Positions 1 to 11,578 of a DNA stretch of 49,796 bases are shown piece by piece. The translations under genes were made by a program, and so were the position numbers. The stretch spans positions 1 through 49,796 of the forward strand of contig NZ_CADIJW010000043.1 of the NCBI RefSeq assembly GCF_902859745.1. The letters run 5' to 3'. The number at the start of each line of letters is the position of its first letter. Positions within the stretch are counted from its first letter, which is position 1. The notes below the pieces were generated by a model, which was not told where the DNA came from, ran no database searches, and saw only the letters and a program-made list of their open reading frames with translations. This DNA is from Achromobacter dolens (GTDB taxonomy: Bacteria > Pseudomonadota > Gammaproteobacteria > Burkholderiales > Burkholderiaceae_B).

Positions 1-76
1 CCAGCAGCGGCGCCAGGCCGGCGGCGGCCGCAAAGGCGCCGCCCGCGCCCAGGAAATGCCTGCGTGTCAGTCTCAT
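1..76 (-). CDS. Tat-exported protein, N-terminus only (cut by window edge)
   Basis: Reading leftward from an ATG at 74-76, 25 codons are visible before the window ends. They begin MRLTRRHFLGAGG and run into an Ala/Leu-rich hydrophobic stretch. The TRRHFLGAG segment fits a twin-arginine (Tat) signal, so the mature protein is probably exported folded, often with a cofactor. A GAGGAG ribosome binding site lies at 82-87, five bases before the ATG. It follows the Met-repeat gene by about 75 bases on the same strand, so it may be the last member of that operon. The mature part is outside the window and the product cannot be named. Confidence 0.75.
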   Translation of the reverse strand, partial: MRLTRRHFLGAGGAFAAAAGLAPLL

Positions 77-150
77 GGGGGCTCCTCGGGAAAGCGGGCC
101 CGCGCGCGGCGCGGCCGGGGCGGCGCACGCGGGACGGTTGGCGGGCGGGC

Positions 151-480
151 TTACTTGCCCATGCTGTCCTTGCTCATGGAGCCGCCCTTGGACATGCCGT
201 CCTTGGACATCCCTTCCTTCGACATGCCATCCTTGGCCATGCCGTCCTTCTTCATGCCGTCGTGCGACATGCCGTCCTTGGACATGGAGTTCTTCGACAT
301 GCCGTCCTTGGACATGCCGTCCTTCGCCATGCCATCCTTGGCCATGCCATCCTTCGACATGCCGCTCTTGGCCATGCCGTCCTTCGACATGCCGTCCTTG
401 GACATGCTGTCGGCCGCGTGCGCGGCGACCGCGCCAAAAGCCAGGCACAGCGAGAATGCGGCGGTGGTGAGTGTCTTCAT
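151..480 (-). CDS. Periplasmic Met-rich pentapeptide MxKDx repeat protein
   Basis: This 109-residue protein has a signal peptide at about 1-22 (cleavage after AHA). From residue 26 to the end it is almost entirely five-residue units of the form M-S/A-K-D-G: about 16 units plus a partial last one. The repeat part carries 17 Met in 84 residues and no Cys. It belongs to the MxKDx pentapeptide repeat family, whose biochemical role is not generally established. GAGGAAC precedes the ATG. It lies downstream of a molybdopterin oxidoreductase and a cytochrome b gene, suggesting a periplasmic substrate or partner of that enzyme. I infer that its exposed Met residues could be sacrificial oxidant targets, as proposed for Met-rich MrpX in Azospira. 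A metal-binding or structural role is possible. Confidence 0.9.
   Translation of the reverse strand: MKTLTTAAFSLCLAFGAVAAHAADSMSKDGMSKDGMAKSGMSKDGMAKDGMAKDGMSKDGMSKNSMSKDGMSHDGMKKDGMAKDGMSKEGMSKDGMSKGGSMSKDSMGK
154..405 (-). repeat. In-frame 15-bp tandem repeat encoding MxKDG units
   Basis: About 17 head-to-tail copies of a degenerate 15-base unit fill the coding region of the Met-rich protein. Copies differ mainly at the second codon (Ser/Ala) and at third positions, and one copy has an extra codon (MSKGGS). Because the unit is a multiple of three, slippage would change repeat number without breaking the frame. Confidence 0.9.
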
Positions 481-527
481 GATGCGTTCCTCTGGTGTGT
501 CGTGGTGGGAAAAAAAGTGAAAACCAC

Positions 528-1319
528 CTAGCTGCCGCCGAACCAGTTGTAGCCCTGGTCCTCCCAGTAACCGCCCGGGTAGGTGTTGGTGACGAAAATC
601 GCCTGGATGTGCTTGGGGTTCTTGTAGCCAAGCTTGGTGGGCATCCGCAGCTTCATCGGGAAGCCGTACTCCGGCGGCAGGGTCTTGCCGTCGTAAGTCA
701 GCGCCAGGATCGTCTGCGGATGCAACGCGGTCGGCATGTCGATGCTGGTGTAGTAGTCATCGGCACACTTGAATCCCACATATTTCGCGGTCAGGTCGGC
801 GCCCACGCGCTTCAGGAAGGTCGAGAACGGCACGCCGCCCCATTTGCCGATGGCGCTCCAGCCCTCGACGCAGATGTGGCGCGTGACCTGGTCGATCTGC
901 GCCATGGCGCGCAGCTCTTCCAGCCGCCAGCGGCGCTTGTCCGCCACCATGCCGGTGACTTCCAGCCGGAAGCTCTCTTCCTCGACCTGCCGCACCTCGT
1001 CGATGCCGTAATAGGCATTGAACGGGAACGGGCGGGTGATCATCGATTCCGGGTAGGTGGGGGCCAGCTTGTTCGGATCGAAGATCCAGCCTTGCACCCG
1101 GTCGTTGAAGCGCGACACCGCGCTCAGTGCCTTTTCCACGTTTTCATCGTCGGACAGCGTGCAGCCGGACAGCATCGCCAGCCCGCCCAGCGTCAGGCTG
1201 CTGCGCAGGAAGGCGCGGCGCGAGGGCGCCTCGACCCGCTTGTCCAGGATCTTCACGGCTTCCTTCAGGATCGCCGGGCCATCCAGGCCCAGCAGCGACA
1301 GGCGTCGTTTTGCGCTCAC
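528..1319 (-). CDS. Tat-exported molybdopterin-dependent oxidoreductase (sulfite oxidase/MsrP-like fold)
   Basis: The 263-residue protein has a twin-arginine motif SRRAFLRSS at about 33-41 and a hydrophobic stretch ending in LSGC (Cys53), which looks like a lipobox. It may therefore be a Tat-exported lipoprotein held at the outer face of the inner membrane. The 33 residues before SRR make an unusually long signal n-region. The molybdenum-pterin domain starts near 95 and carries HICVEGWS, with Cys150 as the likely Mo thiolate ligand. This is the sulfite oxidase superfamily that includes MsrP (YedY) and SorA/SorT. At 263 residues it is shorter than E. coli MsrP (about 330). The cytochrome b gene ends 10 bases upstream, consistent with an enzyme plus membrane electron donor. 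The substrate cannot be read from sequence; methionine sulfoxide is one candidate given the adjacent Met-rich gene. Confidence 0.85.
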   Translation of the reverse strand: MSAKRRLSLLGLDGPAILKEAVKILDKRVEAPSRRAFLRSSLTLGGLAMLSGCTLSDDENVEKALSAVSRFNDRVQGWIFDPNKLAPTYPESMITRPFPFNAYYGIDEVRQVEEESFRLEVTGMVADKRRWRLEELRAMAQIDQVTRHICVEGWSAIGKWGGVPFSTFLKRVGADLTAKYVGFKCADDYYTSIDMPTALHPQTILALTYDGKTLPPEYGFPMKLRMPTKLGYKNPKHIQAIFVTNTYPGGYWEDQGYNWFGGS

Positions 1320-1329
1320 GTCAGACTCC

Positions 1330-2010
1330 TTATTTGCCGCGGATCATGGCGATCAGGCTGCGCGGCACCAGCGCCACCATGACCAGGTGGACCGCCACGA
1401 ACGCCACCAGCAGCGCCATGGCGAAGAAATGGATGCGGCGCGCGAATTCATAGCCGCCCAGCAGCGTGCGCAGCGTGTCGAACTGCACCGACTTCCACAG
1501 CACCAGGCCGGACAGGACCAGCACCGTGATATCCGCGATGACGAACAGGTAGGCCAGCCGCTGCACCTGGTTATAGTGGCGCGGGTCGGCATGCGACAGC
1601 TTGCCGCGCAGGGCGGCGGCCAGGTCGCGGGCGACGCCGCGCGGGCCGACCGGGAAGAACTTGCGCCACAGGCGGCCGGTGGTCAGGTTCAGCCCCAGGT
1701 AGAGCAGGCCGTTGACCAGCAGCAGCCACATGCCGGCGAAGTGCCATTGCAGCGCGCCGCCCAGCCAGCCGCCCAGGGTGGCGCCGTTGGGAAAGGTGAA
1801 GTCGAAGAACGGCGCGGCGTTGTAAATGCGCCAGCCGCTGGTCACCATGATGACCACGGCCAGCGCATTGAGCCAATGCATGATGCGCAGCCAGCCGGGA
1901 TGGACCGGGCCGCGGCTGTCGGCCGCCGGGGCGGCGGGGGCGTCTGGGGTGGCGGGCGTGGCCATCATGGCGGGGCTCCTCGGGGAGGCGGTTGTTGTCG
2001 TTGGAGCCAT
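1330..2010 (-). CDS. Cytochrome b561-like membrane protein, electron partner of the Mo enzyme
   Basis: This 226-residue protein has a Pro/Ala-rich N-terminal tail of about 40 residues and then four predicted membrane helices: near WLRIMHWLNALAVVIM, LQWHFAGMWLLLVNG, LAYLFVIADITVLVL and HFFAMALLVAFVAVHL. His residues in or beside helices 1, 2 and 4 are candidate haem b ligands. The family (cytochrome b/b6 N-terminal domain, b561-like) passes electrons from quinol across the inner membrane. It is first in the operon, immediately before the periplasmic Mo enzyme, like MsrQ with MsrP, although MsrQ is a different six-helix haem protein. The ATG at 2010 has GGGGAAG just upstream; a second start about 14 codons in is possible. 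Confidence 0.85.
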   Translation of the reverse strand: MAPTTTTASPRSPAMMATPATPDAPAAPAADSRGPVHPGWLRIMHWLNALAVVIMVTSGWRIYNAAPFFDFTFPNGATLGGWLGGALQWHFAGMWLLLVNGLLYLGLNLTTGRLWRKFFPVGPRGVARDLAAALRGKLSHADPRHYNQVQRLAYLFVIADITVLVLSGLVLWKSVQFDTLRTLLGGYEFARRIHFFAMALLVAFVAVHLVMVALVPRSLIAMIRGK

Positions 2011-2179
2011 TCTTCCCCGGGCCCGATATCGAAGTCCTCACGCAAACTTAAAATAAATGTGATAACTCGCCGGCCATGGATTGGCGACAATAGCGCTGCC
2101 GGGGGCGGATCGCCCGCGCCCGGCGTTGCCGGCCGCTGGCGGTCGGCTCACCCTGATTTCCACCCCTGACCGAGCCCCT

Positions 2180-2911
2180 ATGGATACGCCCCGCCGCGTC
2201 CTGATCGTCGAAGACGACGCCCACATCGCCGAATTGCTGCGCCTGCACCTGCGTGACGAGGGGTACGCGGTCGAGCACGCGGCCGACGGCAACGAAGGCA
2301 TGCGCCGGCTGGAGGAGGGCGGCTGGGACGCCCTGGTGCTGGACCTGATGCTGCCCGGCATCGACGGCCTGGAGATCTGCAAGCGCGCCCGCGCCATGAC
2401 GCGCTACACCCCCATCATCATCACCAGCGCCCGCTCCAGCGAGGTGCACCGCATCCTCGGCCTGGAACTGGGCGCCGACGACTACCTGGCCAAGCCGTTC
2501 TCGATGCTGGAACTGGTGGCGCGGGTGCGCGCGCTGCTGCGCCGCACCGAGGCGCTGGAGCGCAATGCCCGCATCGACGCCGGCAGCCTGCGCCAGCACG
2601 GCGTGGCCATCGACCCCATTGCCCGCACCGCCTCGGTCGACGAGCGCCGGCTGGAACTGACGCCGCGTGAATTCGACCTGCTGCATTTCTTCGCCCGCAA
2701 TCCCGACAAGGTGTTCTCGCGGCTGGACCTGCTGAACCAGGTCTGGGGCTACCAGCACGAAGGCTATGAGCACACCGTCAACACCCACATCAACCGGCTG
2801 CGCACCAAGATCGAGGCCGATCCGTCCAATCCGCAACGCATCCTCACGGTCTGGGGGCGCGGCTACAAGTTCGCGGCCGCGCCCGGCGCGCCGGCGGAGT
2901 CAGCATCATGA
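2180..2911 (+). CDS. OmpR-family response regulator
   Basis: The 243-residue protein has an N-terminal receiver domain (acidic EDD at 11-13, phospho-acceptor Asp55 in LVLDLMLPG, Lys105 in LAKPF) and a C-terminal winged-helix DNA-binding domain ending in [13 protein letters not shown] chose the ATG at 2180 because [13 protein letters not shown] is the normal receiver N-terminus; upstream in-frame codons look non-coding. It overlaps the next gene by four bases (ATGA), so the two are translationally coupled. It is divergent from the cytochrome b/Mo enzyme operon about 170 bases away, which makes that operon a plausible target, as HprSR controls msrPQ in E. coli. The signal is unknown. Confidence 0.93.
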
Positions 2912-4380
2912 AGCGCCTGACCCTGACCCAGCGCCTGTCGGCCGTGTTCGCGCTGCTGCTGCTGGCGTGCTGCGGCGCGTCGGCCTGGCTGCAGATCTCG
3001 GCCCATGCGCGTTACGAGCAGGAAGTGGTGCAGCGCCTGTCCAGCGGACTGGCGCAGCATATCGCCGGCACCAATGAACTGATGGACGCCAACGGCTGGA
3101 AGCCGGACGCAGTGCGTTCGCTGTTCTCGATGCTGATGATGGTGAATCCCGCGGTCGAGGTCTACCTGCTGGACAACGACGGACGCATCGTCGGCGATGC
3201 CGCGCCGCCCGGGCAGATCAAGCGCGACCGGATCGACCTGGCGCCGGTGCGGCGCTTCCTGGCGGGCGGGGCGCTGCCGATCGAAGGCGACGATCCGCGC
3301 CACCTGGATACGGCCAAGGTATTTTCGGCCGCGCCGGTGCGGGTGGCGGGGCGCGACGAGGGCTATGTCTATGTGGTGTTGCAGGGCCAGGCGCATGACG
3401 CGCTGGCGATGGCCGCGTCGCGCAGCGCGGTGCTGCGCACCACCCTGTGGTCGATTGCGCTGGTGGCCTTGTTGGGCCTGGTGGCGAGCCTGGCGGCGTT
3501 CGGCCTGATCACGCGGCCGCTGCGCGGCCTGACGCGCGCGGTGCGGGCCTTTGGCGACGACGACGGCCGCGCGTTGGCGGCGCTGGAAAGGCCCGCCGAC
3601 GCCACTGATGCGGGCGGCGACGAGATCTCGCTGCTGCGCCGCAGCTTCGTGCAGATGGGCCGCCGCATCTCCGAGCAATGGCGCCAGTTGACGCAACAGG
3701 ACCAGCAGCGGCGCGACCTGGTGGCGAACATTTCGCACGATCTGCGCACGCCGCTGACCTCGCTGCACGGCTACCTGGAGACCCTGCGGTTGAAGGACGA
3801 GACGCTGGACGCGGCCGAGCGCCGCCGTTACCTGGACATCGCCCTGGCGCAGAGCCGCAAGGTCGGCCGGCTGGCGCAGGAACTGTTCGAGCTGGCGCGG
3901 CTGGAATCCGGGCTGGTGCGGCTGGAACCCGAGACCTTCTCGCTGCCCGAGCTGGCGCAGGACGTGATCCAGAAATTCGAATTGGCCGCCGAGGCGCGCC
4001 AGCAGCGGCTGACCACGGCGATTGACCAGGAACTGCCGCCGGTGCGCGCCGACCTGGGCATGATCGAGCGGGTGCTCACCAATCTGCTGGACAACGCCAT
4101 CCGCCATACGGCGCCGGGAGGATGCATCGAGCTACGCCTGCGGCAGGCGCGCGACGGCGTGCAGGTGCGGGTCAGCGACAATGGCGCCGGCATTCCCGAC
4201 GCCTTGCGCGCCGGCCTGTTCACCCGCGCCTCGGTGCTGGCGGACGGCCCGCGCGATGGCGGCGGGCTGGGGCTGGTGATCGTGCACCGCATCCTGAAGC
4301 TGCATCACAGCGATATCCGGCTGGTGCAACGGCCGGAGCCGGGCGCGGTGTTCGAATTCGACCTGCCGGCGGCGCGCTGA
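2908..4380 (+). CDS. Membrane sensor histidine kinase
   Basis: The 490-residue sensor kinase is paired with the preceding regulator. Membrane helices lie at about 10-30 and 178-203, enclosing a periplasmic sensor domain of about 150 residues. A HAMP linker follows the second helix, then a HisKA dimerisation domain with His277 in NISHDLRTPLTSLHG. The ATPase domain has an N-box (LTNLLDNAIRHT) and G-boxes (DNGAGIPD, GGGLGLVIV). The periplasmic domain contains few Cys and has no recognisable ligand motif. It shares the four-base ATGA overlap with the regulator. The gene ends 50 bases before a convergent flavoprotein gene. Confidence 0.93.
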   Translation: MKRLTLTQRLSAVFALLLLACCGASAWLQISAHARYEQEVVQRLSSGLAQHIAGTNELMDANGWKPDAVRSLFSMLMMVNPAVEVYLLDNDGRIVGDAAPPGQIKRDRIDLAPVRRFLAGGALPIEGDDPRHLDTAKVFSAAPVRVAGRDEGYVYVVLQGQAHDALAMAASRSAVLRTTLWSIALVALLGLVASLAAFGLITRPLRGLTRAVRAFGDDDGRALAALERPADATDAGGDEISLLRRSFVQMGRRISEQWRQLTQQDQQRRDLVANISHDLRTPLTSLHGYLETLRLKDETLDAAERRRYLDIALAQSRKVGRLAQELFELARLESGLVRLEPETFSLPELAQDVIQKFELAAEARQQRLTTAIDQELPPVRADLGMIERVLTNLLDNAIRHTAPGGCIELRLRQARDGVQVRVSDNGAGIPDALRAGLFTRASVLADGPRDGGGLGLVIVHRILKLHHSDIRLVQRPEPGAVFEFDLPAAR

Positions 4381-4429
4381 CGCGGCGTCAGCCGCCCGCG
4401 CGCCGCCGTAGCCTGGCGCTGGCGTGCCG

Positions 4430-5587
4430 TCAGGCCGCTGTCGGCATCCTGCCGTTGAGCAGGTAGTCCATCAGCTCGCGCACGCTGCGCATGGCGTCGC
4501 CGAACGGCAGCTTCGACGCGCCGCGGAAGAACAGGCCACGGCTGACTTCGCCGCGCATGGCGGCGGCCAGCTTCAGGTCGATGCAGAACTGGCCGAAGCG
4601 CGCGATGCCGTCGCGCAGGCCGCACTGCGTCAGGCAGTCCATGCGCTGGCTGCAACGGCGTGCGTCGCAGCGGGTGCTCTCCTGCAGGGTCTTTTCCTGG
4701 CGCAGGTAGCGCGTCAGCCACGGCGTCGGCACGGCGCGCGCCGGCAGGCCGGCCACGCTGGTGAATTCGGCCAGCTTGTCGGGGTCGGCTTCCATCAGCA
4801 CGCGCTTGAAGTTCTCGTGGGCATCGCCTTCTTCGGTCACGGCGAAAGCCGTGCCCACCTGCACGCCGTCGGCGCCGTGGCCGAGCCAGTGGCGCACCTG
4901 CTCGTGGCTGCCGACGCCGCCGGCCACGATCAGGCGCGGGGCGTCGCGGCCCAGTTGCAGGTCCTGGAACAACTGGCGGCATTCGGCCAGCACGCGCTTG
5001 AAGTCGAAGCGTTCGTCGTGGATGTCGTCCAGGCGCGCGGCGCCCAGGTGGCCGCCGGCGTAGCCGGGGTGTTCGATGACCACGGCGTCGGCCATGCGGC
5101 CTTTCTTCATCCACTTTTTCAGTACGGCGGCCACGCCGCGCGCTTCCGACAGGATGGGGACCAGCGCCACCTTGGGGTAGTCGGCGGTCATGTCGGGCAG
5201 GTCCAGCGGCAGGCCGGCGCCCATGACGATGGCCTGGGCGCCGCTTTCGCAGGCCTGGCGCACCAGGGCGGGATGGTCGCGCACCGCCTTCATGACGTTG
5301 ACGGCCACCACGCCGCGCCCCTGCGCGGTGTCGAGCGCGGCGCGCACTTCGCGGTCCAGCGCGACGCGGTTGGCGCTGTCGATCTGTTCACGGTCGCGGC
5401 AGTCCTCGGTCTGCTCGATCAGATCGGGGTGGTGATGGCGCAAGTCCACACTGGCGATGGTGCCGACCGCGTTCTGGCTGGCGACCGCGCCGGCCAGGCG
5501 ATGGGCGGATACGCCGACGCCCATGCCGCCCTGGACGATGGGCAGCAATTCGCGTCCGGCGAGAGTGAGGGATTTGAACCACGTCAT
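4430..5587 (-). CDS. Nitronate monooxygenase-family FMN oxidoreductase with C-terminal Cys cluster
   Basis: The 385-residue TIM-barrel flavoprotein belongs to the nitronate monooxygenase/2-nitropropane dioxygenase family. It has PIVQGGMGVGVSAHRLAGAV at the N-terminus, GHLG near the middle, and phosphate-binding glycines in LIVAGGVGSHEQV and GADGVQVGTAFAVTEE. The ATG at 5587 (MTWFKSLTLAGREL) fits the family start; an upstream in-frame ATG at 5638 would add 17 unlikely residues. The C-terminal section is longer than in classic nitronate monooxygenases and carries Cys307, 312, 318, 322 and 335, which resembles a metal or Fe-S site. It stands alone between a convergent kinase gene and the transporter genes. 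The true substrate is not deducible; enoyl-reductase-like activity is an alternative. Confidence 0.85.
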   Translation of the reverse strand: MTWFKSLTLAGRELLPIVQGGMGVGVSAHRLAGAVASQNAVGTIASVDLRHHHPDLIEQTEDCRDREQIDSANRVALDREVRAALDTAQGRGVVAVNVMKAVRDHPALVRQACESGAQAIVMGAGLPLDLPDMTADYPKVALVPILSEARGVAAVLKKWMKKGRMADAVVIEHPGYAGGHLGAARLDDIHDERFDFKRVLAECRQLFQDLQLGRDAPRLIVAGGVGSHEQVRHWLGHGADGVQVGTAFAVTEEGDAHENFKRVLMEADPDKLAEFTSVAGLPARAVPTPWLTRYLRQEKTLQESTRCDARRCSQRMDCLTQCGLRDGIARFGQFCIDLKLAAAMRGEVSRGLFFRGASKLPFGDAMRSVRELMDYLLNGRMPTAA

Positions 5588-5722
5588 GAAATGGGAGCCT
5601 TTATTGGGAACAGTGGCTCCGAGGCTAGAGCAATGCATGACGCGCCGCCTTGCGCGGGATCAAGCGGGCGGGTGAAAGCGGGGAGAGGGAACGCGGCAGG
5701 GGCGTGGCCCGGCCGGGCAGAC

Positions 5723-5754
5723 AAAAAAGGGGCGGAGCCGGCGGGCTCCGCCCC
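5723..5754 (-). terminator. Rho-independent terminator of the transporter/mvaA unit
   Basis: On the minus strand an 11-bp perfect GC-rich stem (5744-5754 with 5729-5739) with a four-base loop is followed by six T residues (5728-5723). It lies 16 bases after the stop of the permease gene. Confidence 0.9.
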
Positions 5755-5769
5755 TGGCCAATGGTGGCC

Positions 5770-7158
5770 TTACGCCACCAGCTTGACCAGCGCCGGCACC
5801 GTCAGCACGGCGGTGTAGTAGCCCATGAACTGCACGCCGGTGTTAAAGCCGAACAGGCGCGACAGCAGGCCGCCGAACAGGCCCATGGTCAGGATCACCA
5901 GCAGGCCCAGGAACTGGCCTTCCCACACGCTGATCACGATGATCAGGCCGACGAAGGTGGCGATGATGGCCTCGTGGCTGACCTTGCGCGACACGAACAG
6001 CGCGGCGCGGCGCGCGAAGTTCATGGCGAACGGATACGACACGATCGCCGCCAGCAGCACCGCCAGCATGCCGTAGCCCAGGAACTCCCAGTGGTTCAGC
6101 AGGTTGTGCAGGTTGTGCGTTTGGCCGCTGGCCGCGTCCACCGTGAAGCGCGGCGGCGCGTTGAACAGCGGCGCGGCCGGGCCGGCGGCCACCGGGCTGA
6201 GCGGCAGGCCGAAGGCGATCAGCGGGATCAGGGCCTCGGCGATGTAGGTCGCCTCGGTGACGCCGTTGCGCGCGCTCAGCACCGTGGTCAGGCGGTGATA
6301 GGCGTGCTTGATGCGCGAGCCCACCAGTTCGCCCAGCACCACCGTCATCGCCACCGGGCTGAACACGAAGGTGGCGCTGGAGATGGTGGCGGTGGCCAGG
6401 GTCCAGCGGGTCTGGATGCGGTCCATCACCTTGAGCGGATTGGGAAAGTAGCCCGACCAGCCCTTGACGTCCGGCGCCAGCGAGAACGTGCGCACCTTGT
6501 CGCGCATCATTTTGGCGCGGCCCTGTGGCGCGATCACGGTGAACAGGTCGGCGATCAGCGGGCCGATGGCGATGCCCAGGAAGTAGCTGATGCTGAGCTT
6601 GACGCCGTATTTGGCGGTCAGGCTCTGCAGCGCCACGATCACCACCACGAACGGCACCAGCAGCGCCACGGCCGCCCAGCGGCCGGCCGAGAAATAGGCG
6701 ATCAGCACCGCCGCGGCCAGGAAGATCCACGGCGCCGACTTGGTGATGGCGCCGCCGAACGGCGCCAGCAGCACGGCGAACAGCACCGCCAGCGGCACCG
6801 CCACGAAGGCGGCGACGATGGCGCCCGACACCATCTTGCGCAGCGCGATGTGCGGCACGCCCAGCTTGCGCAGCATGTTGGCGTCCTGCAGCAGCGGCGT
6901 GGCGAGCGTGTCGCCGGGGATGCCCAGCAGCGCCGTCGGCACCGCGTGGGTCATGTGCTTGGCCACCGCGCCGGCCAGGAAGAAGGTGAAGACGCCGGCG
7001 GGCGGCACGCCCAGCAGCACCACCAGCAGCGTCAGCGGCGCCAGCGTGGTGGTCTCGTCGGTGCCGGACACCAGGCCGATGGCGGCGAACACCACCGCGC
7101 CCAGGAGGCCCATGCCGGCGGCCACCATGATCTGTTCAAGCAACACGGGATCGCTCAT
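5770..7158 (-). CDS. TctA-like tripartite transporter permease
   Basis: The 462-residue integral membrane protein has about 11-12 hydrophobic segments. The N-terminal half contains GLVSGTDETTTLAPLTLL and TALLGIPGDTLATPL, resembling the conserved loops of TctA (DUF112) permeases of the tripartite tricarboxylate transporter family, which import carboxylates using the ion gradient. It overlaps by four bases with the small membrane gene upstream, a TctB-like partner. No periplasmic binding protein gene lies in this operon. The only TctC-type protein in the window is at 15846-16838. Because a catabolic HMG-CoA reductase gene precedes it, I infer that mevalonate or a related acid could be the cargo. 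A strong terminator follows. Confidence 0.75.
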   Translation of the reverse strand: MSDPVLLEQIMVAAGMGLLGAVVFAAIGLVSGTDETTTLAPLTLLVVLLGVPPAGVFTFFLAGAVAKHMTHAVPTALLGIPGDTLATPLLQDANMLRKLGVPHIALRKMVSGAIVAAFVAVPLAVLFAVLLAPFGGAITKSAPWIFLAAAVLIAYFSAGRWAAVALLVPFVVVIVALQSLTAKYGVKLSISYFLGIAIGPLIADLFTVIAPQGRAKMMRDKVRTFSLAPDVKGWSGYFPNPLKVMDRIQTRWTLATATISSATFVFSPVAMTVVLGELVGSRIKHAYHRLTTVLSARNGVTEATYIAEALIPLIAFGLPLSPVAAGPAAPLFNAPPRFTVDAASGQTHNLHNLLNHWEFLGYGMLAVLLAAIVSYPFAMNFARRAALFVSRKVSHEAIIATFVGLIIVISVWEGQFLGLLVILTMGLFGGLLSRLFGFNTGVQFMGYYTAVLTVPALVKLVA

Positions 7159-7628
7159 GCCGGCACCTCTTCACGCACGTTGCGCGGTTGGGCCTGCGGC
7201 GCCGGCGCCGCGGCGGGCGCGGCGAACAGCTCGTACAGGTCCAGTTCCTTCAGTTCCTTGACCACCGCCGGCGGCAGGTCCGCCAGCGTGCCCAGGCCGC
7301 CCGGTTGCGCGGCCAGTTCGGCCAGCACCTCGGCGCGCCAGGCCGGATCGTGCGAGGCGCTGTGCTCGACCACTTCGCGTTTGGGCGGGAACAGGCGGGC
7401 GCAGATCACGCCCGCCAGCACGCAGCCGGCCAGGCCGGCCAGCATGGCGTAGGCGTGCGCCAGCTCGGGCGAGGCGACCTTGTCGCGCAGCCAGCCGCTG
7501 GCGGCGTAGAAGCCCGCCACGCTGACGGCGATGCCGATGGCGATGGCCCACGCCAGGTGGCGCAGGTCGACCGTGTCGTTCCATACTTCGGCCAGGCGTC
7601 CGGCGGACGCCTTGCTGTCTCTTTCCAT
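7155..7628 (-). CDS. Small membrane protein, probable TctB-like subunit
   Basis: The 157-residue protein has two membrane helices near residues 24-47 and 57-82, then a soluble Ala/Pro/Leu-rich tail containing ELKELDLYELF. I do not recognise a named domain. Its size, topology and ATGA overlap with the downstream TctA-like permease suggest the small membrane subunit of the same transporter. TctB proteins usually have four helices, so this would be a reduced version. ATG at 7628 follows a GGAGAC ribosome binding site. About 95 bases with two GC-rich hairpins separate it from the HMG-CoA reductase gene upstream. Confidence 0.7.
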   Translation of the reverse strand: MERDSKASAGRLAEVWNDTVDLRHLAWAIAIGIAVSVAGFYAASGWLRDKVASPELAHAYAMLAGLAGCVLAGVICARLFPPKREVVEHSASHDPAWRAEVLAELAAQPGGLGTLADLPPAVVKELKELDLYELFAAPAAAPAPQAQPRNVREEVPA

Positions 7629-7648
7629 GTCTGTCTCCTTGATGGACG

Positions 7649-7711
7649 GGCGGCGCGGGAGGTTCCCGGCGCCGCCTCTGTTCTTGTGCGGCCGGCGTGC
7701 GTGCGCCGGCC
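7649..7711 (-). other. Two intercistronic GC-rich hairpins
   Basis: Between mvaA and the small membrane gene two inverted repeats can be drawn: 7649-7655 with 7670-7676 (GGCGGCG/CGCCGCC), and 7690-7697 with 7704-7711 (GGCCGGCG/CGCCGGCC, six-base loop). Neither has a T-run in the minus direction, so mRNA processing or partial attenuation is likelier than full termination. Confidence 0.5.
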
Positions 7712-7722
7712 GTGCCGCGCCG

Positions 7723-9012
<1,290 letters not shown>

Positions 9013-9054
9013 GGCATGTGTCTCCATCTGGAAATCTAGGAATTGGGTGACCGG

Positions 9055-9107
9055 ATTCTAGGTAAACTGTACCGGCATTCAGAGGTACAGTTTGGACGAA
9101 CAGTACC
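9055..9107. promoter_or_regulatory. MocR operator and mvaA promoter
   Basis: A perfect inverted repeat, AAACTGTACC at 9064-9073 and GGTACAGTTT at 9084-9093, is separated by ten bases. A third, near-identical half site AACAGTACC lies at 9099-9107, in direct orientation 34 bases from the first. A minus-strand -10 candidate TAGAAT sits at 9060-9055, so the inverted repeat spans the -15 to -45 area of the mvaA promoter. Paired plus extra half sites in a divergent promoter are typical of MocR/GntR regulators; assignment to the adjacent regulator is inferred. Confidence 0.8.
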
Positions 9108-9153
9108 ATCGCACTGCACCAATTTTCGACTTTTTCCCGCTGGAAACCACGCC

Positions 9154-10584
9154 GTGGACGCCGACAATTCCCCGGGCCGCGCCCCGCGCGCCGCGCCCAT
9201 CGCCGAAAGCCTGGCGCGCCTGATCGGGCGCCAGATCGCCGATGGCGTCTACCGCCCGGGCGATAAATTGCCGTCGCTGCGCGAGCTGGCGCAATTGCAT
9301 CGCTACGCCAAGAACACCGTGGTGGTGGCGTTCGAGATGCTGGTGGCGCGCGGGCTGGTGGAGCCGCGCCGCGGCTCGGGCTTCTACGTGCTCGACACCG
9401 GGCCGGCGCGGCGCGCCGCCGATGAGGAGCCGGGACAGTTGAGCCGCGCCATGGACATCGTCTGGCTGATGCGCGAGCAACTCAAGACGCAGCCCGACGC
9501 CATCGCCGCCGGCGACGGCTTCCCGCCGGTGGAATGGCTGGCCGACATGCGCATGGACCGCTATCACCAGAAGGTGGTGCGCACCGGCCTGGGCACGTTG
9601 TTCCGCTATGGCAGCCGCTTCGGCTACGCGCCGCTGCGCGAGAGCCTGGTGCGCAAGCTGGGCGACGTCGGCATCAGCGCGGCGCCGTCGCAACTGGTGC
9701 TGACGCACGGCGCCAACGAGGCCATGGACCTGGTGATCCGCTACTTCCTGCCGCCGGGCGCGGCGGCGCTGGTGGACGATCCGGGCTACTACCCGCTGTT
9801 CGGTAAGCTCAAGCTGGCCGGCGTGCGCATGCTGGGCGTGCCGCGCCTGTCGGACGGCCCGGATCTGGCGGCGCTGGAGGCGTTGCTGCAGCGCGAGAAG
9901 CCGCGCCTCTTTTTCACGCAGTCGCTGGCGCACAACCCCACCGGTTCCGACATTTCGCCGGCCAAGGCCTACAAGCTGCTGCAACTGGCCGAGCGCCACA
10001 ACCTGATCGTGGTCGAGAACGATCCGCTGGCCGACTTCAAGCCGACCTCGGCGGTGCGGCTGTCGGCGCTGGACCAACTGGAACGCACGGTCTACATCGG
10101 CAGTTTCTCGAAGTCGTTCTCGGCGGCGCTGCGGGTCGGCTTCATCGCCTGCGGCGCGGGCCTGGCCAGCGATCTGGCGGACCTGAAGGCGCTGGTGCAC
10201 GTCAGCAGTTCGGAATACTGCGAACGCATGGTCGACGTGATGCTGCGCGACGGCCACTACGAACGCCATCTGGTGCGCCTGCGCCAGCGGCTGGAAGCGG
10301 CCACCGGCGACGCGCTGCGGGTGCTCGATTCGCTGGGCGCGACGGTCTACACGCGGCCCACCCGCTCGCTCTATCTGTGGGCGGCGTTTCCCGGCATCGA
10401 CAATTCGCTGGCGCTGGCCGAGGACCTGATGCCGGAGAAGGTCATCATGGCGCCGGGCCGCGTGTTCAGCGTCGACCCGACGGCGGCCTCGCCCTGGTCG
10501 CGCTGCAATGTGGGCGCGGTGGCGTCGCCGCGCTTTCACGCCGCGCTGGCGGCGCGCCTGGGGCGCGGCGGCGCTCAGCGGTAG
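9154..10584 (+). CDS. MocR-type regulator (GntR winged helix fused to PLP aminotransferase-like domain)
   Basis: The 476-residue protein has a GntR-type DNA-binding domain at about 15-85 (RLIGRQIADGVYRPGDKLPS, then LVEPRRGSGFYV). A fold-type I aminotransferase-like domain follows, with SLAHNPTGSDIS, VVENDPLADF and SFSKSFSAALRVGF; the Lys of the last motif is the likely PLP-linking residue. These regulators sense PLP and amino compounds. I chose GTG at 9154 because GGAAA lies 8 bases upstream and an ATG start at 9043 would place coding sequence across the operator. It faces mvaA and probably controls it and itself. Its stop overlaps the convergent nrdG end by ten bases. Confidence 0.88.
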   Translation: MDADNSPGRAPRAAPIAESLARLIGRQIADGVYRPGDKLPSLRELAQLHRYAKNTVVVAFEMLVARGLVEPRRGSGFYVLDTGPARRAADEEPGQLSRAMDIVWLMREQLKTQPDAIAAGDGFPPVEWLADMRMDRYHQKVVRTGLGTLFRYGSRFGYAPLRESLVRKLGDVGISAAPSQLVLTHGANEAMDLVIRYFLPPGAAALVDDPGYYPLFGKLKLAGVRMLGVPRLSDGPDLAALEALLQREKPRLFFTQSLAHNPTGSDISPAKAYKLLQLAERHNLIVVENDPLADFKPTSAVRLSALDQLERTVYIGSFSKSFSAALRVGFIACGAGLASDLADLKALVHVSSSEYCERMVDVMLRDGHYERHLVRLRQRLEAATGDALRVLDSLGATVYTRPTRSLYLWAAFPGIDNSLALAEDLMPEKVIMAPGRVFSVDPTAASPWSRCNVGAVASPRFHAALAARLGRGGAQR

Positions 10585-11366
10585 CTGAATTCCTCGAACC
10601 AGCCGCGCAGCAGGGCCTGCGCCTGCGCGCCCAGCAGCCGCGCCGGCGGGGTGCTGGGGCAATTGCGCGCGCCCTGCACCGCGAAGCGCTTGACGCCGCG
10701 CCGCGCCAGTTCGCGCGCCAGGCCCAGCAGCCGGGTCTCGTCGAGCCAGTCGGGATGCCAGGTGATGCGGCATTCGAAATCCACGCCCGCCGTCAGCAAC
10801 TGCGTCAGGCAGGCCTGCGCCGGGCGGTGTGAATCGCGCCGGCCGGTGATGTCGTCATAGCCCTGCGCGTCGGCCTTGATGTCCAGGCCGACCCAGTCCA
10901 GGTAGCGCAGCACGTCGGCCAGCCGCAGCGGATAGATGCCGGCCGTGTGCAGGCCGATGCGATAGCCCATGCGCCGCGCCTCGCGGATCATCGACGGCAG
11001 GCGCGGCTCGCTCAGCGGTTCTCCGCCGGAGAACACCACGGCGTCCAGCAGCCCCTGGCGGTTGTCGAGGAAGGCGCGCACGTCGCGCCAGTCGTAGCGC
11101 GCGTTGCGCGTCTGCAGTTCGGGGTTGTGGCAGTAGTGGCAGCGCCACGGACAGCCGGCGATGAAGATGACGGCGGCCAGCGTGCCGGGCCAGTCCACGG
11201 TGGAAAACGGCGTCAGCCCGCCCACCGCCGGGGAATGGCGCGGCAGCGGCTGGGCCGCCGGCCGCGGCGGCGCGGCATAGGCCATGCGCGGCGGGTGGCG
11301 GGCGGGGGCGGCCTTGCGGCCGCCGCCCGCTTCAGGCACGTTGTTCGACGAAGAAGCGGCGTTCAT
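10575..11366 (-). CDS. nrdG: Anaerobic ribonucleotide reductase activase (radical SAM)
   Basis: The 263-residue radical-SAM activase generates the glycyl radical on class III ribonucleotide reductase. The 4Fe-4S motif CPWRCHYC gives Cys72, Cys76 and Cys79; GGEPLSEP is the SAM-binding GGE motif. It is longer than E. coli NrdG (154 residues) and matches the longer NrdG-like subgroup. The N-terminal 45 residues are Ala/Pro-rich and poorly constrained, so an internal ATG at 11285 is an alternative start. The ATG at 11366 would overlap the upstream glycyl-radical gene by 35 bases, which implies coupling. The gene is third in the operon nrdD, small radical-domain gene, nrdG. Confidence 0.9.
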   Translation of the reverse strand: MNAASSSNNVPEAGGGRKAAPARHPPRMAYAAPPRPAAQPLPRHSPAVGGLTPFSTVDWPGTLAAVIFIAGCPWRCHYCHNPELQTRNARYDWRDVRAFLDNRQGLLDAVVFSGGEPLSEPRLPSMIREARRMGYRIGLHTAGIYPLRLADVLRYLDWVGLDIKADAQGYDDITGRRDSHRPAQACLTQLLTAGVDFECRITWHPDWLDETRLLGLARELARRGVKRFAVQGARNCPSTPPARLLGAQAQALLRGWFEEFSYR

Positions 11367-11514
11367 TGAATTCGCCTTGTTTGCCGGTATTGAAGGAAGA
11401 CACGGGGCGGTGGTAGCCCATGACGCGGGTCCAGACTTCGCAGCGCACGCGCTGGCTGTCGTCCAGGCGCAGCGCCTGCGGGGCGGCGGCTTCGGGAGAG
11501 ATCACGGTTTGCAT
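11332..11514 (-). CDS. Separate glycyl-radical domain of class III ribonucleotide reductase
   Basis: This 60-residue protein reads CEVWTRVMGYHRPVSSFN followed by GKQGEFNERRFF. RVxGYxRPV is the glycyl-radical motif normally found at the very C-terminus of class III NrdD, with Gly33 as the radical site. The large NrdD protein encoded just upstream ends shortly after its zinc-site Cys pairs and lacks this motif. The small gene has an excellent AAGGAG ribosome binding site 6 bases before its ATG and lies in a different frame, 64 bases beyond the nrdD stop. It therefore looks like a real separate gene rather than the debris of a single-base frameshift. I infer that it docks onto NrdD in trans, comparable in concept to the GrcA (YfiD) spare part of pyruvate formate-lyase. 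Confidence 0.82.
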   Translation of the reverse strand: MQTVISPEAAAPQALRLDDSQRVRCEVWTRVMGYHRPVSSFNTGKQGEFNERRFFVEQRA

Positions 11515-11578
11515 AACAGCTCCTTGGGGAAAGGCCGGGCGGGGATCGCCCGGGGAAAAAAGCGGTCGACAGCGGCGG

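Follow-up and report, generated by a model that had tools for sequence, protein, structure and literature searches.

In E. coli, MsrPQ is under the control of HprSR. The locus considered here lies at the beginning of a stretch of 49,796 nucleotides from Achromobacter dolens (assembly GCF_902859745.1, contig NZ_CADIJW010000043.1, positions 1 to 49,796; the whole stretch is hereafter the window), where a two-component system (TCS) faces an operon for a membrane cytochrome b561, a molybdenum (Mo) enzyme and a methionine (Met)-rich MxKDx protein. It resembles MsrPQ/HprSR in having a Mo enzyme of the SUOX fold, a membrane haem partner and TCS control (MsrPQ as cited in the available text of PMC8550376), but its Mo enzyme carries a lipobox and is 28% identical to the genome's own MsrP, the partner is a b561 protein (PF01292) and not MsrQ, and a Met-rich protein is encoded in the operon. 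By sequence, the closest characterised relative is OrhK/OrhR with C3566-C3568 of uropathogenic E. coli (UPEC) CFT073, in which a divergent OmpR-type TCS likewise faces the genes for a cytochrome b, a Mo enzyme and a Met-rich peptide. In the accessible part of the report on that system, OrhR binds the c3566 promoter region, the likely site being an inverted repeat, TCACA-N15-TGTGA, upstream of the -35 box; OrhK/OrhR activates c3566-c3568 upon peroxide exposure; and deletion mutants grow and survive more poorly in tert-butyl hydroperoxide (PMC8550376). In place of a TCS, control by extracytoplasmic function (ECF) sigma and anti-sigma factors is found in the yedYZ-mrpX-sigF/nrsF arrangement of perchlorate islands, which, in the excerpt available, pairs a Met-rich peptide with the putative Met sulfoxide reductase genes yedYZ (PMC4623255). 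Likewise, bcrXQP, described in the available text as encoding an MXKDX protein and a putative Met sulfoxide reductase system that contributes to resistance to hypochlorous acid, is under the ECF factor BcrS and has MsrQP-type partners, in contrast to the b561 partner and TCS of the window (PMC8315932). The accessible parts of two further papers place Msr genes under the ECF factor EcfF (PMC3420878) and a YedY-type gene under sigma F of Caulobacter, where, as far as that text goes, msrA homologues did not respond (PMC3511200). We consider it likely that the window carries an OrhK/OrhR-type TCS switching on a periplasmic operon for Met-oxidation sink and repair, a reading carried by gene content, export-signal-like N-termini, a DNA box, the linkage of this box to the regulator and the co-conservation of the module, each of them apparent in the sequences compared.

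A preliminary description of the locus had taken it for an independent version of such a system. Independent invention was rejected after comparison with the CFT073 homologues, because E. coli holds a homologous set with the same kind of inverted-repeat box, and the module is also found beside ECF sigma/NrsF genes elsewhere. That description was right that the partners belong together and wrong on their independent origin, and it had overlooked both the exported MsrB and MsrA of the operon and the DNA box. Hypochlorite, the oxidant it pointed to, is a candidate; the CFT073 data are on peroxides. Identity to the window is 56% for the Mo enzyme, 58% for the regulator and 46% for the kinase of CFT073 (L159, a stretch reaching up to c3568), and 61%, 62% and 46%, with 58% for the cytochrome, for an intact E. 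coli plasmid copy (L157). Unlike the window operon, neither E. coli stretch, both ending soon after the peptide gene, holds msrB or msrA. With 38.8 and 35.2 bits, their peptides (L157:3870-4118, L159:3748-3990) narrowly miss the TIGR02953 cut-off of 41, and they carry Cys in MCKD units, whereas the single Cys of the window protein is located in the signal region. The CFT073 cytochrome gene (L159, 2352-2950) is annotated as frameshifted, though the available text of PMC8550376 treats c3566 as working. Within E. coli, 356 of 5426 complete genomes match the module of Serratia, 69 of them over at least 80% of the query, and 76 of the 369 matching places are on plasmids; the module seems to be mobile in this species.

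The window box, TCACA-N15-CGTGA, is one base off the published right arm, and it is the sole site in the genome when up to three mismatches are allowed. Since the box is unique, this TCS looks dedicated to the locus, as had been proposed. Where a TCS adjoins the module, the pattern TCAC-N17-GTGA lies upstream of the cytochrome gene in 25 of 26 rows; where none does, it was matched in 28 of 74. These 28 comprise 24 Pseudomonas, one further genome (G133, L038), the second copy of a tandem locus (L081), and L042 and L155, whose matches, only at the fixed ends, look like chance. Over 21 rows of our own choice the 25-base box is 81% identical in pairwise comparison, against 35% and 46% for its flanks, eight of the 25 positions being set by the search pattern itself. 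Eight Pseudomonas genomes have the box without a TCS beside it; each of them carries a regulator 74-77% identical on another contig, whereas the best regulator match reached only 41-44% in eight box-less genomes (five of the ECF/NrsF type and three of the "none" type of the sorting given below). In all eight Pseudomonas genomes the TCS and an MsrB gene diverge. This MsrB shares 59-61% identity with the one in a same-genus relative of the window (L049), with alignments starting at L049 residue 1 or 3, and it too is preceded by the box; MsrA adjoins MsrB in five and lies 1.7-1.9 kb farther in three. With the extended 31-base box, at most two mismatches being allowed, exactly two sites were found in each of the eight, one before cytochrome-Mo-MxKDx and one before the MsrB beside the TCS on another contig. 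The same pattern has one site in each of six TCS-type genomes, two in Bordetella genomosp. 2, whose locus is tandem, and none in the eight box-less genomes without a close regulator; the reversed pattern, used as a control, gave no site across the 23 genomes. What is new here is that, in the sequences compared, the box tracks the presence of the TCS.

Within the genus, the Mo enzyme is present in 42 of 43 genomes, the exception being a genome 57% complete, and the 31-base box was matched in 35 of the 43. Of the seven genomes with a Mo enzyme but no box match, six carry the TCS, and their box is altered in its left arm. At the locus of the seventh (G439, L231) box and TCS are both absent, and the best regulator in that genome is 42% identical; cytochrome, Mo enzyme, MxKDx, MsrB and MsrA are kept, and beyond the gap lie nitronate monooxygenase and TctA-type genes, by eye the same as those beyond the window TCS. 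Judged by sequence, this is a joint loss of TCS and box with the enzymes kept, and a single event. Several points limit these counts. In L080 the TCS is present yet the TCAC-N17-GTGA pattern is not matched, which is a weak point of the count. The 31-base pattern was built from members, so its presence there is partly circular, although the number of sites per genome and the absence elsewhere are not. Both the 16 genomes of the regulator comparison and the 23 of the pattern search were hand-chosen rather than random, and location on another contig in a draft genome does not prove distance. The tandem locus of Bordetella genomosp. 2 (L081, about 3571-11576) holds cytochrome-Mo-MxKDx-MsrB-MsrA twice with a period of 4837 bases; both copies have a box of their own, and there is a single TCS.

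All five genes called in the preliminary description (MxKDx protein, Mo enzyme, cytochrome b, OmpR-type regulator and kinase) are borne out by position and family score (Table 1). On the minus strand the order of transcription is cytochrome b561, Mo enzyme, MxKDx and the start of msrB; regulator and kinase lie on the plus strand, divergent from this operon. Position 1 of the window is the edge of its contig (C43), which hides part of the operon. On another contig of the same genome (C25), a SelR domain (MsrB; 164.7 bits, cut-off 24.9) lies at 66-407 and a PMSR domain (MsrA; 195.6 bits, cut-off 23.7) at 602-1060. The two contig ends share no sequence overlap, and the last base of C43 with the first two of C25 makes an Ala codon in frame, matching the relative. 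In that relative (G138, L049), MxKDx is followed by a Tat-signal (twin-arginine translocation) MsrB and then by an MsrA with a signal-peptide-like start, an order identical in G237 (L059); the TAT_signal score is 21.8 bits for the window fragment and 23.8 for the intact L049 protein, against a cut-off of 22.7. From the L049 order, the C25 domains and the in-frame join, the most probable gene order of the operon is cytochrome-Mo-MxKDx-msrB-msrA, interrupted here by a break in the assembly. The new point is that MsrB and MsrA are in the same regulon as a system of the OrhKR/mrpX kind. In the openly licensed literature searched, no paper tying exported MsrA/B to an OrhKR-type TCS was found; the excerpt available of PMC4623255 describes msrA and msrB, predicted to be exported, in the perchlorate islands of P. 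militaris MP and D. hydrogenophilus LT-1.

Table 1. Features of the locus at the start of the window, with coordinates in the window.
Feature	Position	Strand	Basis
MsrB start, first 25 codons, Tat-type N-terminus (cut by contig end)	1..76	-	Comparison with intact relative L049 and contig C25
MxKDx Met-rich repeat protein, signal peptide, 109 aa; proposed oxidant sink	151..480	-	TIGR02953
Tat lipoprotein Mo oxidoreductase, SUOX fold, 263 aa; proposed Met sulfoxide reductase	528..1319	-	PF00174, C-V-E-G-W
Membrane cytochrome b561; proposed quinol-to-Mo-enzyme electron donor	1330..2010	-	PF01292
Putative response-regulator box TCACATTTATTTTAAGTTTGCGTGA	2038..2062 (extended form 2035-2065)	-, read toward cytochrome gene	Between regulator and cytochrome genes
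OmpR-family response regulator, OrhR-like	2180..2911	+	Pfam domains; 58-62% identity to E. coli
Sensor histidine kinase, OrhK-like, HAMP-HisKA-HATPase, periplasmic sensor region	2908..4380	+	46% identity to E. coli

We hypothesize that the OrhK/OrhR-type TCS senses periplasmic oxidation and turns on the operon via the conserved box. The exported MxKDx protein would take up oxidant, forming Met sulfoxide; the cytochrome b561 would hand quinol electrons to the Tat-exported, lipid-anchored, MsrP-like Mo enzyme, which would reduce Met sulfoxide in MxKDx and in other envelope proteins; and the exported MsrB and MsrA would use cysteine chemistry to reduce the R and S forms. The substrate (Met sulfoxide), the electron path, the role as a sink and the kinase signal are what we infer from the components. 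The MxKDx protein holds 18 Met in 109 residues (16.5%), or 17 in about 86 after inferred signal cleavage, which agrees with the 20% first given for it, and 15 of the 16 Met-to-Met intervals past the signal region are exactly five residues, in line with the pentapeptide lattice first described; its TIGR02953 (NCBIfam) score, 102.2 bits, is so far above the curated cut-off of 41 that the repeat is not chance. The cytochrome matches PF01292 (88.5 bits, cut-off 30.1), no MsrQ or ferric-reductase family was among its family matches, and its His 45, 90 and 140 are conserved in all 25 rows compared, whereas His 194 and 208 are found in 24 of them. In MsrA the Cys of the GCFW motif is the sole Cys beyond the first 27 or so residues in all 25 sequences, and the MsrA of this operon has only that one; all 18 MsrB sequences have four paired Cys, presumably a zinc site, and the catalytic Cys, and two of them carry an extra Cys near the N-terminus. 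By these counts MsrA and MsrB show no resolving Cys. Met 77 in the sensor region of the kinase, invariant in 33 of 33 sequences, as are many other positions there, is a candidate sensing residue.

The extent to which these partners occur together was followed in two sets. An MxKDx profile search over 300 genomes of the order gave 39 with a match, 24 of them above the cut-off, and regional sequence covers 34 of the other 38 matching genomes. Among the 24, the Mo enzyme lies within about 2 kb of the MxKDx gene in 19 (in one, L039, as a piece only); in three (L045, L054, L056) an MsrB whose start looks Tat-like by eye lies within about 1 kb, alone or accompanied by MsrA; one (L051) has an ECF sigma factor and NrsF, and one (L057) none of these. 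The second set holds the best 80 of at least 588 relatives in a scan of named genomes with the Mo-enzyme alignment; among the matches listed, the nearest Mo enzyme from a named genome is that of Achromobacter deleyi (97%). The cytochrome is found in 77 of the 80 loci and MxKDx in 76. MxKDx is missing from L134 and L146 and also from L121 and L152, whose sequences stop 292 and 45 bases past the Mo gene. The co-occurrence survey that the preliminary description had called for thus speaks for it: with linkage in 19 of 24 and 76 of 80, MxKDx genes are not unlinked to such enzymes. Within 8 kb, MsrA occurs in 30 of the 80 loci and MsrB in 10, some loci stopping at contig edges. Serratia bockelmannii (L151) has a second pair of these two genes at 803-2168, some 5 kb away from the main module and more distantly related (61% for the Mo enzyme, 50% for the cytochrome).

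The identity of the Mo enzyme bears directly on how the operon is read. It matches PF00174 (106.8 bits, cut-off 24), and the Tat-exported, lipobox-bearing protein of 263 residues that had been described is recovered in the twin Arg at 34-35 and Cys 53, which do not vary among the 19 aligned relatives. Equally invariant is C150-V-E152-G-W154, in the same columns as in the genome's own MsrP, its Cys being presumably the Mo ligand. This motif argues against a sulfite dehydrogenase feeding the cytochrome, since the genome's own SorA (688.6 bits, cut-off 600) has C-S-G-N there; the enzyme also stays below the cut-offs of SorA (51.3 against 600), SoxC (41 against 420) and SorT (13.3 against 570), a Pfam search found no second domain besides PF00174, its best solved relative by sequence is 1xdq, which we take to be E. 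coli YedY/MsrP (3.5e-13, against 2.3e-6 for the next), and its partners are Msr and Met-rich proteins. We regard a sulfite dehydrogenase as hardly plausible. Structure did not bear on this choice: an AlphaFold2 model (mean predicted local distance difference test, pLDDT, 69.2; predicted TM-score 0.60; Mo-ligand stretch 151-154 below 50) was assigned to the SUOX fold by fold comparison, with no discrimination of MsrP from sulfite oxidases. By sequence, the enzyme is the third protein of this fold in the genome, besides MsrP and SorA; the genome also has another MsrB (C73) and another MsrA (C20). More weight belongs to the idea, unlikely though we consider it, that the substrate of the Mo enzyme is some other small oxidised compound (a different sulfoxide, an N-oxide or a chlorinated amine), Met repair being left to MsrA and MsrB. 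With 82.6 bits it is below the MsrP equivalog cut-off (NF003767, 207), the genome already has a true MsrP (477.3), MsrA and MsrB together would cover both forms of Met sulfoxide, and the eight Pseudomonas genomes keep the two enzyme sets on different contigs. Nevertheless, 70 of the 80 loci are without MsrB and 50 without MsrA (within 8 kb, some ending at contig edges), a Met-rich gene is beside the Mo enzyme in 76, and the C-V-E-G-W motif is that of MsrP.

Met-rich proteins of the periplasm can bind Cu(I), and the MxKDx protein might accordingly be a copper or silver sponge in an operon responding to metal. The TCS has sub-threshold similarity to heavy-metal regulators, and in the available text of PMC3511200 Caulobacter sigma F, the controller of a YedY-type gene, takes part in the chromium and cadmium response. 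The scores of the TCS against TIGR01386/01387 are, however, far under the heavy-metal cut-offs (147.8 against 292.55 and 169.3 against 279.2), and the two-promoter regulon of Pseudomonas consists of Msr and Mo/cytochrome genes, so that we hold a metal sponge to be very improbable. Neighbour families were clustered and Pfam named three unknown clusters (ECF sigma, NrsF and a methyltransferase), so the absence of metal genes is weakly tested.

Returning to the TCS-controlled Met-sulfoxide operon, its controller differs among bacteria. The 80 loci were sorted into 20 with a TCS, 25 with the box only, 22 with ECF sigma and/or NrsF near the module (by Pfam in the examples, NrsF with 248.7 bits and sigma-70 regions) and 13 with none, a class that includes loci ending near the module (L138, L139 and L150 upstream, L152 downstream); after hand correction of L081, which has a TCS and had been scored on its second tandem copy, the TCS class counts 21 and the box-only class 24, all Pseudomonas. 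ECF/NrsF control of the module would follow from gene position. As other bacteria carry the same module next to genes for ECF sigma and NrsF, it looks as if a single module can be controlled by either a TCS or SigF/NrsF. On the Mo-enzyme tree (one quick tree, with 39 open branches) the "box" and "ECF" states need at least two changes, and one effector module therefore seems to have been paired with different controllers. At the present locus the proposal of a TCS instead of SigF/NrsF agrees with the search, as no ECF sigma or NrsF match was found at E 1e-3 in the whole window and the first 8 kb of C25. A chlorite-dismutase family match is present in 13 of 399 genomes of the order, and at the two such loci with long, high-scoring matches no Mo, cytochrome, MxKDx, Msr, ECF or NrsF match was found.

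On a broader view, which we put forward only tentatively, the components would form a closed periplasmic Met-redox circuit under one TCS and one or two promoters. The Met-rich sink would be recharged by two separate electron sources: quinol, by way of cytochrome b561 and then the Mo enzyme, and a thiol, by way of MsrA and MsrB without a resolving Cys. The kinase may read Met oxidation, and the module would be portable, with repeated switches of its controller between TCS and ECF sigma/NrsF. Apart from this broader view, the comparison brings together OrhKR of UPEC, mrpX-yedYZ of the perchlorate islands and exported MsrA/B, previously described separately, as one module with a defined DNA box, and it provides cases in which box and regulator are jointly present or jointly lost. 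For Achromobacter, Variovorax, Pseudomonas, Serratia and E. coli it amounts to a ready map of the regulon for defence of the envelope against oxidants, and with purified parts the role of Met-rich sink proteins can be put directly to the test.

Farther along the window, at 7723-9027 on the minus strand, a gene for HMG-CoA reductase (PF00368, 372.8 bits) lies near genes for a TctA-family transporter and a nitronate monooxygenase.

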